Assembly (NCBI GenBank): GCA_035528375.1
Contig: DATKYS010000073.1
Location: 1-64,000 of the forward strand
Length of the DNA stretch: 64,000 nt
Source of the DNA: a bacterium
GTDB lineage: Bacteria > RBG-13-66-14
Direction of reading: 5' to 3'
This document shows, piece by piece, positions 2,080-35,717 of the stretch. The translations under genes were made by a program, and so were the position numbers. The notes beneath the pieces are model-generated. The model was not told where the DNA came from. It did not search any database and saw only the letters and a list, made by a program, of their open reading frames with translations. Each line of letters begins with the position of its first letter. Positions within the stretch are counted from its first letter, which is position 1.

Positions 2080-4839
2080 TTAATAATTCCAGCCGATGTA
2101 AAACCCGAACTCCGCCTCCCGCTGAACCTCGTAAAAATCGGTGAGCCAGGCGAAATCGAAGCGCAACGCGACGAAGGGCCCGAGCCCCAGGCGCAGCCCC
2201 ACCCCGAAGTCCCCCTCGAGACCGGGAACGTCCTCGCCCGAATCCCAGGCGGTTCCCGCGTCGAAGAAGAGCGCGCCCTCGACGTGGGTGAAGGCGATGG
2301 TGCCCGCCGGCAGCCCCAGGGCCAGGTAGTCCAGCACCGGGAAGCGCCACTCGAGGTTGCCCATGACGAGGCGGGTGCCGTTGAAGTAGCCGAAGGGATA
2401 GCCGCGCATGGAGAGCGAGCCGCCGAAGTAGGTGCGGCGCGCGTCGGGACCGTCGGACAAGCGCCCGACGACCCGGGTGGCCAGGGTCGTGCGCCGGCTC
2501 GTGCGCAGGTAGTAGCGCAGGTCGCCCCAGAAGGAGTCGTAGGCCGCGCTCCCGGTGGAGAGATCGAAAGTCTGGCCCGCCGACAGGTTCACCCGCGCGC
2601 CGTCCACCGGCCCGATCAGGTCCCACAGGGTGTTGTCGAAAACGAAGCCCAGGTAGCCCGAGGCGAGGGGGCGGTTGGTCCAGGTCTCGTCTATGTAGTC
2701 GTAGAGCTCGCTCCCCCGGGCGACGACGCTCGCCTCCAGGCGGACGTAGCGGCTGAATGGATAGTTGAAAAGTCCGACGACCCCGTACCGCCTCTCGTAG
2801 TAGGGGATGAGCGTGGTGTAGTCGGTGTAGTCGTCCACGTAGTGGAAGGCCCCGACGCCCCACCCCAGACGGCGGCTCCGGTTGACGTAGGTCGCGGCGA
2901 CGTTGAGGTAGTCGAAGAAGTTGTCGAAGCTCTCACCCACCGAGTAGAGCTGGAAGATCATCTGCTGGTCGCCGGTGAGGTCGGTCAGCCCGAGGGCCGT
3001 GCCGAAGCCGGTGCCGAACTCGGGGTCGTAGGCGACCTCGGAGCGGACGACGTCCAGGGTGAACTCCGTCTTGTAGGGGTGGACCTCGCCTATCTCCTCC
3101 CGGGTGGCCAGGCTGGGGAGCTCCTCCTCCACGGCGACCGCCGGCTCCTCCACCGCGGCGCACTCCTCGAGCCCGTCGAGGAGGTAGACGCCGAACCGGT
3201 ACCCCTGGAGCCCCTCGCACAGGACGCGTCCGTCGGGGGTGAAGGAGGCGTTCCAGGCCCCGGTGAAGAGGCGTGTCAGGCGCGTGACCGAGCCGTCGGT
3301 CTCCAGGCGGTAGAGGTCGGCGGCCCCCCCGCGGTCCGAGGTGAAGCACAGCCGGCCCCCGGGATCGAAGAAGGGGCCGGAGTCCTTCCAGGGCCCCTCG
3401 GTCAGGGGAACCACCGTTCCCGTATCCGGCTCCAGCCGGAAGAGGTTCCGGTCGCCGGAGATGATAACGCCCCCGGAGTTCGAGGCGAAGACCACCGCCT
3501 CCCCGTCGGGGGTGAAGACGGGGTCCGACTCGTAGGCGAAGTCCCGGGTCAGCCGCTCCACCGAGCCGTTCGACGCGTTCACCACGTAGAGGTCCGAGGC
3601 GCCGCTCGCGTCCAATCCCACGAGGATGATTCTCCCCCCGTCCCAGGAGGGGTCCGAGAGGGCCACGGTGTCCCCCACGGTGTACCGATCCGTCACGCCG
3701 CCGGAGCTCAGGTCGTACACGCAGAGCTCGTCCCGCCCCTGACGGCCGGCGACGAAGGCCACCCGCCCGGCGGGGTCGGCGTCCAGGGAGGTGGCGAACA
3801 TGAGCAGGCTCTCGTAGGCGGGGTCCCGTTCGGCGATGAGGAGGCTCGTGTAGTCGAGGTCCCCCTCGAGCGGCGCCCAGAAGAGACCCTGGTAGCCCAG
3901 GTAGTCGGAGAGGTAGACGAAACCCGGTACGCCGTCCTTCTCGGCATAGGCGGGAGCCAGCGCCATCTCCACCTCGCCGGTGCGGCGCTCCCCCGCCTCG
4001 TCCAGGAACAGCCGGTCGGCGACCTCGGGGTAGTAGCGCCGCTTCAGCCAATTCCGCCAGTCCCGGTCGAGCTCCTCGAGGTCCACCCCCAGCGCGTCCC
4101 GGAGGACCACGCTGAAGTACTCGCTGGTGTAGGACTTGCGGACGAGATCGAAGAGGGCGTCCTCGCCGTAGGTATTCGCGATGTAAGCCACGGCGGACTG
4201 GCCCTCCTTGTACAAGAGAAACACCGGGCCGTAGTACTCCAGTTCGGTGAGCGGGACGACCTTCTCCTCGAGCACCAGGTCCCGCACGTAAATCTCCATC
4301 TCGGTATTGGCGCCCTGGCTGAGGTACTCGGCCAGCCCCTCCTCGAACCAGAGGGAGGGTCGGGCGTAACTGGCGACGCCGCGCCCCTCCACCGAGGAGC
4401 GCAGCAGGGCGTAAACGAAGACATGGACCAGCTCGTGGTGGAGGGTGTGGGCGAAGTCGGCCAGGTCGCCCCCGTTGGGCAGGGCCACCCGCCCCTTCAT
4501 GTACTCGGTGAAGCCGCCCACGGACTCGGGCAGGAACCCGGCGTAGATGCGCGTCTGCCGGAAGCTGGTCCGGTCGGCGTAGACGAAGACGGGGACGCGC
4601 CACGGCACGGTGCAGCCGAACGAGAGCGCCAATTCGTCATAGTACCTCTCGGCCAGCTCCGCGGTTATACCGGCCAGTTCCTCTTCCTCGGGGTAGAAGT
4701 GGACGTCGAAATGCTCGGTAGCCAGGACCTGCCAGTCCAGGTCGCGGTAGGCCACCTTGTTCTGGCCGAAGGTGGAATAGGCCGAGGCGGCGAGGGGGAC
4801 GAGGAGTACCGGCAGGATGTGGCGGAGGGTGAGTCTCAT
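2080..4839 (-). CDS. secreted metalloprotease-like / TolB-propeller / Omp85-barrel chimera
   Basis: A 919-residue exported protein with three parts. Residues 1-20 are a signal peptide. A gluzincin peptidase-like domain follows, with the zinc motif HELVH at residues 135-139 and a downstream FEEGLAEYL (about 165-172) that would supply the third ligand. The middle (about residues 290-600) is a series of TolB/PD40-type beta-propeller blades with recurring motifs such as SDPSWDGGRI, SDPVFTPDGEAVVF and SGPFFDPGGRLCF. The last ~300 residues resemble the bacterial surface antigen (Omp85/BamA) barrel, ending FGFYIGWNY, a C-terminal aromatic pattern read by the BAM machinery. The ATG at MRLTLRHILP is chosen because it starts the signal peptide. 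I infer an outer-membrane protein whose protease and propeller face the periplasm or the surface; the substrate is unknown. Confidence 0.8.
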   Translation of the reverse strand: MRLTLRHILPVLLVPLAASAYSTFGQNKVAYRDLDWQVLATEHFDVHFYPEEEELAGITAELAERYYDELALSFGCTVPWRVPVFVYADRTSFRQTRIYAGFLPESVGGFTEYMKGRVALPNGGDLADFAHTLHHELVHVFVYALLRSSVEGRGVASYARPSLWFEEGLAEYLSQGANTEMEIYVRDLVLEEKVVPLTELEYYGPVFLLYKEGQSAVAYIANTYGEDALFDLVRKSYTSEYFSVVLRDALGVDLEELDRDWRNWLKRRYYPEVADRLFLDEAGERRTGEVEMALAPAYAEKDGVPGFVYLSDYLGYQGLFWAPLEGDLDYTSLLIAERDPAYESLLMFATSLDADPAGRVAFVAGRQGRDELCVYDLSSGGVTDRYTVGDTVALSDPSWDGGRIILVGLDASGASDLYVVNASNGSVERLTRDFAYESDPVFTPDGEAVVFASNSGGVIISGDRNLFRLEPDTGTVVPLTEGPWKDSGPFFDPGGRLCFTSDRGGAADLYRLETDGSVTRLTRLFTGAWNASFTPDGRVLCEGLQGYRFGVYLLDGLEECAAVEEPAVAVEEELPSLATREEIGEVHPYKTEFTLDVVRSEVAYDPEFGTGFGTALGLTDLTGDQQMIFQLYSVGESFDNFFDYLNVAATYVNRSRRLGWGVGAFHYVDDYTDYTTLIPYYERRYGVVGLFNYPFSRYVRLEASVVARGSELYDYIDETWTNRPLASGYLGFVFDNTLWDLIGPVDGARVNLSAGQTFDLSTGSAAYDSFWGDLRYYLRTSRRTTLATRVVGRLSDGPDARRTYFGGSLSMRGYPFGYFNGTRLVMGNLEWRFPVLDYLALGLPAGTIAFTHVEGALFFDAGTAWDSGEDVPGLEGDFGVGLRLGLGPFVALRFDFAWLTDFYEVQREAEFGFYIGWNY

Positions 4840-32701: not shown

Positions 32702-32739
32702 CGAAACGGAGCGAAGCGAACTAATACCCCCGGCAAAAA
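32702..32739. repeat. family-B element before the five-gene operon
   Basis: GAAACGGAGCGAAGCGAACT followed by AATACCCCCGGCAAAAAG, ending 13 bases before the -35 box of the operon promoter. Confidence 0.7.
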
Positions 32740-32751
32740 GGGCGCCCTCCC

Positions 32752-32780
32752 TTGACCGCCGCTTGTATTCCATCTACAAT
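32752..32780 (+). promoter_or_regulatory. promoter of the five-gene operon
   Basis: TTGACC, 17 bases, TACAAT, 34 bases before the first start codon. Confidence 0.7.
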
Positions 32781-32814
32781 AATAAAAAACCTCTAAAACT
32801 CGCGGGTGTGAACC

Positions 32815-33180
32815 TTGGCGAACAATAACACCCTCCAGTGGGGCGCCGCCCCCCTCGAGGTCGAAACCAGGGAGCTATTCTCCGACGGGCGGGAGGGCGA
32901 TTTCGAAATCGTCCCCGAAGAACCGGTCCGGCCCCACTGGCGCACGCTGAAACGCTGGCTGAAGACCGTCGGTTTCTCCCCGGTCGAGCGCGCCGAGCGC
33001 TACGACCGCTTCTCGTTGGGAAGTATGACTCTCGCGCTGACCGGGGACGGCCGTTTCATCCTCGAGGGGGTCAAACCCCCGACGGTCCCCACCGCCCTGG
33101 CCCTCGCGCAGCTCTTTCTCTACTGCGACCGGGCGGCCGATCGCCGGCGGCCCGAAGACGCCGAAAAAGAAGGCGGATAA
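32815..33180 (+). CDS. hypothetical protein, first gene of the five-gene operon
   Basis: A 121-residue, probably cytosolic protein starting at TTG; GTG TGA blocks an earlier start and no ATG is available before residue 70. It contains PHWRTLKRWLKTVGFSPVER, then SMTLALTGDGRFILEGVKPP and a predicted amphipathic ALALAQLFLYCD. The C-terminal 20 residues are charged and probably disordered. No family recognised. The stop is followed at once by the DUF4388 gene. Confidence 0.6.
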   Translation: MANNNTLQWGAAPLEVETRELFSDGREGDFEIVPEEPVRPHWRTLKRWLKTVGFSPVERAERYDRFSLGSMTLALTGDGRFILEGVKPPTVPTALALAQLFLYCDRAADRRRPEDAEKEGG

Positions 33181-33181
33181 G

Positions 33182-34039
33182 ATGGCTCTACAAGGCACCC
33201 TGGCGGAGCTCCCCCTCCTCGACCTCCTGGAGATATTCAGCCGCTACTACCGCTCCGGCTGGCTGAGCGTGGAGAGCACCAAGGGGCGCACGGAGATATA
33301 CATAGACGCGGGGCGGATCATCTACGCCGAAAGCGTGGCCGACCGGGAGCCGCTGGGGAAGATGCTCCTCGGGCGCGGCTTCTTGACCCAGGAGCGGCTC
33401 GACGAAGCCCTCCACAGCCAGAAACGAAGCGAAGCGAGTAATGTCCCGGCAAAAAGCCAGGGCGGGGGGCGTCGGATGCTCGGCGAACTCCTCCTGGAAC
33501 TGGGGATCGTCACCCAGGCCGACATCGAGGAAGCCCTGGCCGATCAGCTCGCGGAAACGGTCTACCGCACATCCCTGGAATCCGACGGAACCTTCGTCTA
33601 CAAGGTCGCCGGCTACGAGCCGCCCGGCTCGAAGGTGGTGGTCAAGTTGCGCATAGACGAGGTCGTACTGCGCGGCATGGCCCGGGTCGAGGACATGTCC
33701 CACCTGGGAATCGGCCTGTTTAGCTTCCGGCAGGTCCCCCTCCTCGCCGACGGCGTCGTGAACCTGAAGGAGCTCGACCTGCCGCCGGAGGAGTGGAAGG
33801 TGCTCTCCCTCATAGACGGGCGGCGGAACCTGGACGAGATTACCATGGCCGGCAACCTCACCCGCTTCAGCACCGCCCGGGCCCTCTTCAACCTCCTGGG
33901 GAAGCGGTTGGTGGAGATAGGCATCGGCGCCTCGCCCCCGCCCGTGCAGCGCACCGCCGCCATCCAGGCCGCCAGCCCCGACACCGAGACCCTGGAGAAT
34001 TTAAAGCGCACCCTCGAGGGGGAGGAGAATGCCGGGTAA
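33182..34039 (+). CDS. DUF4388 protein with internal repeat-derived insert
   Basis: A 285-residue cytosolic protein. The N-terminus MALQGTLAELPLLDLLEIFS and YIDAGRIIYAES are the DUF4388 (PatA N-terminal-like) signature, found in proteins linked to gliding, heterocyst or GTPase signalling. After it come two helical segments like the MshEN/GspE N-terminal module, TQERLDEALHSQ and MLGELLLELGIVTQADIEEA. Between them residues ~81-92 (KRSEASNVPAKS) are encoded by a family-B repeat in frame. The last third resembles a winged-helix (DEITMAGNLTRFSTARALF). The end overlaps the next gene by 11 bases. Confidence 0.82.
   Translation: MALQGTLAELPLLDLLEIFSRYYRSGWLSVESTKGRTEIYIDAGRIIYAESVADREPLGKMLLGRGFLTQERLDEALHSQKRSEASNVPAKSQGGGRRMLGELLLELGIVTQADIEEALADQLAETVYRTSLESDGTFVYKVAGYEPPGSKVVVKLRIDEVVLRGMARVEDMSHLGIGLFSFRQVPLLADGVVNLKELDLPPEEWKVLSLIDGRRNLDEITMAGNLTRFSTARALFNLLGKRLVEIGIGASPPPVQRTAAIQAASPDTETLENLKRTLEGEENAG
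33421..33456 (+). repeat. family-B repeat inside a coding sequence
   Basis: GAAACGAAGCGAAGCGAGTA followed by ATGTCCCGGCAAAAAG, a near match to the intergenic copy at 32702-32739. It is 36 bases, exactly 12 codons, and leaves the DUF4388 frame open. Confidence 0.85.
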
Positions 34040-34523
34040 ACCGGTAACGGTACTGGTGCTGGCCGACAAGCCGGAACTGGCCCTCACGCTCCTGGAGTCC
34101 TTCCGACCGACCCAGGGCCAGATTTCCGAGCTGACGACCATCTACGGCTTTCTGGGCCGCTACTACCGCGTGGCGGGCGGGGAGCTGGAGCTGGTCGCCG
34201 CGCCGAGCAACTCCGACCTGCCCTCCCTGTTCGATCTTCTGGCCGAGGGGCTGGCCGGGTACATCGTGGCGGTGGACTGCCTCGACCACAACCGTTTTCC
34301 CAGCATCCGGGCCGGCCTCGATTTCTGGGAGCTCATCAGCGCCGCCCCCCGCATACTCGCCCTGACCAACTACGACGAGCCCAACGCCGTGGACCGTCTC
34401 ACCGTGCGCCAACTCCTCCGCCTGAGCGTGGACGACCAGGTGGTGCCCCTGCCCGAGGGGCAGCTGCGCCCGGCGATAATTTCCCTGTTGAAGATGATTC
34501 TGAGCCGCCCCCGGGAGGTCTAG
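34029..34523 (+). CDS. small GTPase-like protein lacking the P-loop
   Basis: A 164-residue protein whose order of strands and helices resembles Ras/MglA-type G domains. LALTNYDEPNAVDRLTVRQL looks like the G4 (T/NKxD) region with TNYD, and GYIVAVDCLDHNRFPS like the strand before it. The N-terminus VTVLVLADKPELALTLLESF occupies the P-loop position but has no GxxxxGK[ST]; DxxG is also absent. It therefore probably cannot bind GTP normally and may be a pseudo-GTPase partner of the DUF4388 protein it overlaps. Shine-Dalgarno GGAGGAG lies inside the upstream gene. Family assignment is inference from pattern. Confidence 0.6.
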   Translation: MPGKPVTVLVLADKPELALTLLESFRPTQGQISELTTIYGFLGRYYRVAGGELELVAAPSNSDLPSLFDLLAEGLAGYIVAVDCLDHNRFPSIRAGLDFWELISAAPRILALTNYDEPNAVDRLTVRQLLRLSVDDQVVPLPEGQLRPAIISLLKMILSRPREV

Positions 34524-34628
34524 ACCCCCTGCTGGAGGGACGCGGAGAGTCTGCCGCCCGGCGTTTGACACGGGGCCGATTGACGGTGGGAGTGAGACCG
34601 AAACCGGCTGGACCGGCGGGAGGAAACC

Positions 34629-34961
34629 TTGCCTCACTTTTGCGACGAATGGGGTCCCGACGCCTGCGAGATAGAAATAGACTCCCAGAAGCTCGACGTG
34701 CTGGGGGATTTTTTCGTCGTCCGGGGGCGGGTGGTCAACCGGCTGGCCTGCACACTGCCCCACCTGCAACTGCGGATGGTCATGCACTACAAGGATCACG
34801 ACCATCCCCCGATGCGCCAGGGCATCTACCACATCACCGACCGCGCCCTGGAGCCCGGAGAATCCTGCCCCTTCAAGATCGAGGGGGAGTACGACGACGG
34901 GATGCACCACGTGGAGATTGACGTCTGGCCCTCGGATCCCACGGGAGGTCTCCACCCATGA
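34629..34961 (+). CDS. small beta-sandwich protein, FxLYD-like
   Basis: A 110-residue protein from TTG with GGAGGAAACC upstream. The core VRGRVVNRLACTLPHLQLRM, then LEPGESCPFKIEGEYDDG, follows the pattern of FxLYD-type domains (conserved N after the first strand, a PGE turn before the last strands). No signal peptide is present. It has four His/Met residues in MVMHYKDHDHPPMRQ, which could bind metal, but this is speculative. The end overlaps the next start as ATGA. Confidence 0.6.
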   Translation: MPHFCDEWGPDACEIEIDSQKLDVLGDFFVVRGRVVNRLACTLPHLQLRMVMHYKDHDHPPMRQGIYHITDRALEPGESCPFKIEGEYDDGMHHVEIDVWPSDPTGGLHP

Positions 34962-35662
34962 GGATGGCCCCCCTGCCCGAGACGCCCGCCCTTTCGGAAC
35001 TGGACGAGTGGCGGGAGATACTCTTTCTGGGCCCGCTCAAGTGGGCGGAGGTCCACCGCGGCGACGTGGTCCTGGTGACCGACGAGAACGTGGACGACAT
35101 CGCCGAGGTGATGGGCGCCGTCGTGACCCTGGTCACCCATTCGTTCTACTACCACGCCCTCGTTTACGACCACGCCTGGCGATTCATCCACGCCTACGCC
35201 ACCCAGGTCTTTGCCGACAACATCTGGGACTTCTACCTCAAAAAGACCAACGTCACCCTGACCTGGCTGCGACCGCGGCATGCCGACCCGGAGCGGATAA
35301 TCGGGCGGGAGGAGACCGCCGCCGTGGTCGAGTTCGCCCGGAAGCAGATCGGCAAGCCCTACGACCTCTGGGCCAACCTCGCCTTTCTCTTCCGCGCCGA
35401 CGGCGTGAGCCGCGTCCCCGACTGGCTCCGCACCCTCTTCCAGAATCGCAACTGGCTCGACGACCACGGGAAGTGGCATTGCTCGGAGCTGGTCGGCGCC
35501 GCCTGGTGGCGGGCGTGTAAAGTCCGCTTCACCGACGATATGAAGAGCAAGACCTTCCTCTCACCGGCGGACATCAGCGACTCCATCTACGGGGACGTGG
35601 TCTGCTCGCTGAAGATAAGGAACGGCGAGTACCAGCTACTCACCAAGCAGAAGGACGTCTAG
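34958..35662 (+). CDS. permuted papain-fold (YiiX/NlpC-P60 class) enzyme
   Basis: A 234-residue protein of the circularly permuted papain-like group (YiiX/YaeF type), which hydrolyse amide or thioester bonds. The order is His first, Cys late: H66 in TLVTHSFYYHALVYDHAWRF and C175 in GKWHCSELVGAAW, with VEFARKQIGKPYDLWANLAF between, a typical family stretch. RGDVVLVTDEN at residues 34-44 is the usual entry strand. No signal peptide. It is the last gene of the operon, translationally coupled to the preceding one and followed by a strong terminator. Confidence 0.75.
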   Translation: MRMAPLPETPALSELDEWREILFLGPLKWAEVHRGDVVLVTDENVDDIAEVMGAVVTLVTHSFYYHALVYDHAWRFIHAYATQVFADNIWDFYLKKTNVTLTWLRPRHADPERIIGREETAAVVEFARKQIGKPYDLWANLAFLFRADGVSRVPDWLRTLFQNRNWLDDHGKWHCSELVGAAWWRACKVRFTDDMKSKTFLSPADISDSIYGDVVCSLKIRNGEYQLLTKQKDV

Positions 35663-35692
35663 GGATTTCCGAAAATTCAGGCGGTGACGTAG

Positions 35693-35717
35693 GGCGGACG
35701 GTCGGTCCGCCTTTTTT
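35693..35717 (+). terminator. terminator of the five-gene operon
   Basis: GGCGGAC-GGTCG-GTCCGCC followed by six T, 31 bases after the last stop. Confidence 0.88.

Follow-up and report, generated by a model that had tools for sequence, protein, structure and literature searches.

Genes for MglA sometimes adjoin genes for PATAN proteins, as has been described for Groups 1 and 5 (Wuichet and Sogaard-Andersen 2014, PMC4316618). In cyanobacteria, PATAN domains bind the pilus motor PilB (PMC10519157), and in Myxococcus MglA acts through SgmX, bringing PilB to the pole (PMC11580455). Pilus and T2SS ATPases contain a c-di-GMP receptor, the MshEN domain, whose motif RLGxx(L/V/I)(L/V/I)xxG...Q is present in two 24-residue copies, with the first Arg of the motif stacking on guanine (PMC5013675). 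Pseudo-GTPases are known in eukaryotes (PMC5593906), and our search of the literature has returned no description of a conserved bacterial pseudo-GTPase from a PATAN-linked MglA-type switch.

We have analysed a window of 64,000 nucleotides, part of contig C73 in a genome assembly of 2.63 Mb and 144 contigs. It contains a locus that is like the PATAN/DUF4388-MglA pairs (PMC4316618) in that a DUF4388 gene (gene 2) is directly followed by a gene of Ras-like GTPase fold (gene 3); a roadblock-MglA-DUF4388 locus with intact P-loop is also kept elsewhere in genomes of the family. Unlike in those pairs, gene 3 has lost G1, G3 and G4, and a conserved gene for a 121-aa protein (gene 1) has been added upstream. 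Compared with eukaryotic pseudo-GTPases such as the p190RhoGAP domains, gene 3 likewise keeps the GTPase-like domain with a degenerate nucleotide site, while it is bacterial, single-domain, apparently derived from a PATAN-linked GTPase, and known here from sequence.

Organization of the locus

The locus consists of five co-directional genes on the forward strand. A sigma-70-like promoter, TTGACC-N17-TACAAT, stands at 32752–32780 (10/12 consensus), and its box is the same in two congeners (G002 and G003) though the surrounding DNA has diverged. A hairpin typical of an intrinsic terminator lies at 35691–35713 and is kept in a third congener (G001), on the 3' side of what remains of gene 5. The near-consensus promoter and the strong terminator of a preliminary description of this DNA are thus both borne out. 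In between are gene 1 (32815–33180, TTG start), gene 2 (33182–34039), gene 3 (34029–34523, 164 aa), gene 4 (34629–34961, 110 aa) and gene 5 (34958–35662). Genes 1 and 2 are 1 bp apart, genes 2 and 3 overlap by 11 bp, and genes 4 and 5 by 4 bp. The five tightly packed genes described earlier are therefore right as to direction and both overlaps, but genes 3 and 4 stand 105 bp apart, and the packing is not uniform. An Rfam search gave no match.

Genes 1–3 and genes 4–5 are two units

For comparison we have used seven genomes from four genera of one Candidatus Coatesbacteria family. The window's genus has four of them (G000, which is the window's own genome, and G001 to G003). The relatives are draft assemblies, mostly MAGs, in any single one of which a frameshift could be an assembly error. 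Gene 3 is present in 7/7. Genes 1-2-3 adjoin in G000, G002, G003, G004 and G006, and genes 2-3 adjoin in G005 and G001, where both contigs stop. The arrangement of an Rrf2 regulator, the triad and a TSUP permease is common to the three genera with long enough flanks, and in the fourth genes 2 and 3 are adjacent. Wherever the full sequence is present, genes 1–3 are undamaged. A wider search for the triad among 85k named genomes gave only four close relatives, three labelled Coatesbacteria and one labelled 'bacterium'. That genes 1–3 are a vertically inherited signalling triad of this family is part of what we regard as the best explanation.

Genes 4–5 behave differently. Between gene 3 and the TSUP gene they occur only in the window's genus, and even there they are intact in only two of four genomes (the window and G002). 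In G001 both are gone, leaving ~70 bp of the gene 5 3' end and the terminator; this scar has a local alignment score of 48, whereas the highest score among 500 shuffles was 24. G003 has a frameshift in gene 4, and its gene 5 lacks residues 121–175, Cys175 included. Outside the genus, the two genes are paired on a different contig, following a gene for CTP synthase (G006), form a single 393-aa ORF at a locus other than the triad (G005), or were looked for and not found in the case of gene 5 (G004, 99% complete). Assembly error would hardly account for two independent losses, one of which has left a scar.

The supposed five-gene operon is two units, genes 1–3 and genes 4–5. As a single conserved unit the five genes are ruled out by the synteny, deletion and pseudogene evidence: in relatives, genes 1–3 stay together, but they are rarely neighbours of genes 4–5. 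Since genes 4–5 are elsewhere or absent outside the genus, and lost or broken within it, their shared transcript with genes 1–3 is probably incidental. That is, they share a transcript with the triad in two genomes, and probably do not share its function. The earlier proposal of a self-contained signalling unit ending in a modifying enzyme is left without comparative support.

Gene 1 has orthologs in four other genomes, with 36–81% identity for three of them. It has no match in Pfam, NCBIfam or PDB, and its AF2 model (pLDDT 83) gives no significant fold match.

Gene 3 is a predicted pseudo-GTPase

No Pfam or NCBIfam model matched gene 3. Its sequence matches a P-loop GTPase from another family of the phylum (E=3.9e-9), and alignment to such GTPases shows 20–28% identity. 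At the G1 site (34062–34088), ADKPELALT replaces GDVGSGKTE: the P-loop GxxxxGK[ST] is absent in 6/6 family members covering the region, and the window has LADKPELAL there, with a gap. G3 (DxxG or TPGQ) is also absent in the window, which has APSNSD, with SNSD standing at TPGQ, and so is G4 (NKxD), with TNYD at NKQD in the window and NYKE, NHNA or NHDT in relatives. On the other hand, Thr36 and Gly43-Arg44 of switch I are common to gene 3 and true GTPases. The GTPase-like protein lacking a P-loop, noticed in the preliminary description, is thus confirmed.

A profile of gene 3 with GTPases matches structures of Arf, Sar, Rab and MglA. In addition, a Foldseek search with the AF2 model gives only small GTPases among its 50 best matches (lowest E 6e-6), and the order of strands and helices fits a G domain. 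As the model is poor (pLDDT 70, TM 0.38 to the best match), the assignment of the fold rests mainly on sequence homology. Overall, gene 3 is, judging from its sequence, a pseudo-GTPase homologous to the P-loop GTPases downstream of DUF4388 genes, and it would have lost GTP binding.

In a wider search of 386 genomes, orthologs of gene 3 are confined to the family, and the hits in other genomes are P-loop GTPases. The relatives outside the family keep GxxxxGK[ST] in 11/11 cases, most of them carry G1, G3 and G4, and 8/11 have a DUF4388 gene directly upstream, in line with the earlier statement that DUF4388 proteins are known beside small GTPases (PMC4316618). The simplest ancestral state is therefore a DUF4388 gene paired with a GTPase whose site was intact. 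In the tree, gene 3 forms one long-branched clade, whose sister group the tree does not resolve.

Within the genus, dN/dS of gene 3 is 0.03–0.04, the most constrained of the locus, while the other four genes show 0.14–0.46. The proportion of invariant residues reaches 71% in switch I, 70% in switch II and 73% in alpha 3, and is 30% in residues 109–164. This pattern is what would be expected from selection for protein contact without nucleotide binding, an argument that falls short of proof.

A cluster in a more distant genome (L032, G012:C1:719000-737000) encodes two roadblock-like ORFs, two P-loop GTPases, a large PAS-type sensor and two DUF4388 proteins with MshEN motifs, the roadblock and PAS assignments having been made by eye. 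It is likely a functional version of the ancestral system.

Gene 2 carries two altered MshEN motifs

As previously described, gene 2 is a DUF4388 protein: it matches PF14332, which we take to be the same domain as PATAN, in two stretches (E=6.3e-24, 84.8 bits against a gathering score of 25). The helical segment between the stretches carries two MshEN motifs, with NF053729 reaching 41.9 bits in the window (cutoff 38) and passing the cutoff in G004 too. By this model, alignment and the published motif definition, motif I (PLGKMLLGRGFLTQERLDEALHSQ) lies at 33350–33421 and motif II (MLGELLLELGIVTQADIEEALADQ) at 33476–33547.

Like the MshEN receptor domain (PMC5013675), gene 2 thus has two 24-residue RLGxx-type motifs; unlike it, the first Arg is gone from both (to Pro in motif I and Met in motif II), the spacer is longer than 5 residues, and the motifs lie inside a PATAN-type domain. 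The first Arg of motif I is Pro in 6/6 family members covering the motif, that of motif II is lost in all family members but G004, and G004, G005 and G006 have lost the Gln that ends motif I. By contrast, RIG is retained in motif II of those DUF4388 proteins that accompany true GTPases in G012. Since the guanine-stacking Arg has largely been lost, the c-di-GMP site of gene 2 might be weakened together with the GTP site. This reading is tentative, as the first Arg of motif I is also missing in another genome (G013) and in one G012 paralogue.

Genes 4 and 5

Gene 5 has the His-first, Cys-late order of a permuted papain fold, with His66 (35153–35155) early and Cys175 (35480–35482) late, as the preliminary description had recognized. 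H66, IGKPYD and C175-S176 are invariant with phage C92-like relatives. Similar to enzymes of the YiiX/C92 kind, gene 5 has this residue order, IGKPYD and WxCSEL, and by eye no obvious secretion signal, as in the likely cytoplasmic BcPPNE. It differs in its longer His-Cys insertions, its pairing or fusion with gene 4, and its score below the Pfam cutoff: in Pfam there is no PF05708 match, and PRK10030 is reached at E=0.004, below the curated cutoff. As a single sequence, gene 5 finds four weak phage relatives, one of which passes PF05708 at 5e-8, and only via a profile with phage relatives does it reach YiiX (2if6, E=1e-4). The gene 5 profile found nothing in viral contigs. Phage contigs in IMG/VR (L020–L023) code for short permuted papain proteins of the C92/YiiX-like kind that are related to gene 5.

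The earlier label of gene 4 as FxLYD-like finds no profile support: the FxLYD profile matches neither the window's gene 4 nor its orthologs in G006 and G005, and no family was found. All four orthologs compared have Cys5, Cys41, His45 and His68, and these invariant residues may form a metal site. The fusion of genes 4 and 5 in G005 supports their working together. Enzymes of this permuted papain type have been proposed as amidases for lipid-linked amino acids (Xu et al., PMC3142127). Genes 4–5 are an independent unit. Judging by these similarities, it would be a probably cytoplasmic YiiX/C92-like amidase or acyl hydrolase with an accessory domain, and gene 5 is probably unrelated to the triad signalling.

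A dispersed repeat in and around the locus

We have also observed a genus-specific dispersed 30-bp repeat with the consensus CCGAGCGAAGCGAGCTATGCCCC[TC]GGCAAA. Copies with no more than three mismatches number 38 in G000, 109 in G002, 217 in G001 and 9 in G003; the three other genera of the family have none, and neither does the reversed control. In the window, copies are at 33423–33452 (in frame, inside gene 2), about 32706–32735, 384–410 and 12589. Some copies are head-to-tail pairs at 30-bp spacing, and some are inside long ORFs (EPSEASYAPGK, TERSELCPRQ). Compared with G002, the copy in gene 2 is a clean insertion of 30 bp that keeps the frame. The repeat thus seems to have moved recently, and sometimes without disturbing the reading frame; it is like the Rickettsia palindromic elements in effect only.

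In G002 (L072, about 2995–3025 and 3400–3590), further copies lie between the promoter and gene 1 and fill the spacer between genes 1 and 2, which is 1 bp in the window. There are, then, several lineage-specific insertion sites within one 3-kb operon. Many intergenic G000 copies (e.g., L054, L056, L060 and L068) lie between complementary arms that vary in sequence, GGCGGGGAT...ATCCCCGCC and CAAGGGGTTT...AAACCCCTTG, as if the repeat were the loop of variable hairpins.

Proposed mechanism and alternatives

On balance we lean towards a PATAN/MglA-type pair whose switch has become a nucleotide-free adaptor, acting in a fixed state or as a competitor in an MglA/PATAN circuit. It would originate from a widespread gene pair in which a small GTPase of the MglA/Arf type comes after a DUF4388/PATAN protein. 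In the Coatesbacteria family that GTPase would have turned into a pseudo-GTPase which keeps, under very strong selection, its fold and the surfaces that face effectors (switch I, switch II and alpha 3). As GTP binding appears to be lost, gene 3 could not cycle. The pseudo-GTPase would bind the PATAN protein constitutively and independently of nucleotide, that is, it may contact the gene 2 protein and either hold it in one state or compete with true MglA for PATAN/roadblock partners. The output may feed type IV pilus or secretion-motor control, a link borrowed by analogy from PATAN proteins elsewhere; we saw no pilus gene in the neighbourhood of the triad. The window's genome encodes GGDEF proteins and three PilB/GspE-type (T2SS/T4P-type) ATPases. 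Together with the family's roadblock-MglA-DUF4388 locus and the literature on PATAN-PilB and MglA, this favours the adaptor or competitor reading.

Tentatively, the change may have gone further and turned the whole pair nucleotide-free: the switch would have lost GTP binding and its PATAN/MshEN partner c-di-GMP binding, the two being retained in several genera solely for fixed contacts between proteins, in the role of an antagonist or scaffold dedicated to the canonical MglA system. Another reading, in which the triad is an adaptor responding to c-di-GMP, with gene 2 as the sensor through its MshEN motifs and gene 3 as a fixed partner for output, seems unlikely to us. NF053729 does exceed its cutoff in the window and G004, the genome has GGDEF proteins, and MshEN domains are receptors in pilus/T2SS ATPases (PMC5013675), but the Arg that would stack on guanine has become Pro in motif I, only G004 in the family still has it in motif II, and three genomes have no final Gln in motif I.

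We also doubt, rather more strongly, that gene 3 still works as a nucleotide-binding GTPase, unusual in using a non-canonical site. Some pseudo-GTPases still bind nucleotide in altered ways, and both the retained switch I residues and the very low dN/dS would fit such an enzyme, yet gene 3 is without the P-loop Lys/Ser, TPGQ and NKxD, while the P-loop is present in 11/11 outside relatives and all motifs in most. Least probable of all is one five-gene functional module, in which the PATAN/pseudo-GTPase pair regulates a permuted papain enzyme modifying lipid or protein. One promoter and one terminator do surround all five co-directional genes in the window and G002, and gene 4 begins just 105 bp past gene 3; against this, genes 4–5 are at another locus or not found outside the genus and have been deleted or broken in G001 and G003, while genes 1–3 stay undamaged and gene 3 strongly selected.

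Overall, the reading of five genes as one system is corrected here to two separable units. Since distant genomes have relatives of gene 3 that look functional and share its DUF4388 neighbour, the pair offers a natural before/after comparison, which could show what the partner needs from the GTPase: its nucleotide cycle, or just its surface.
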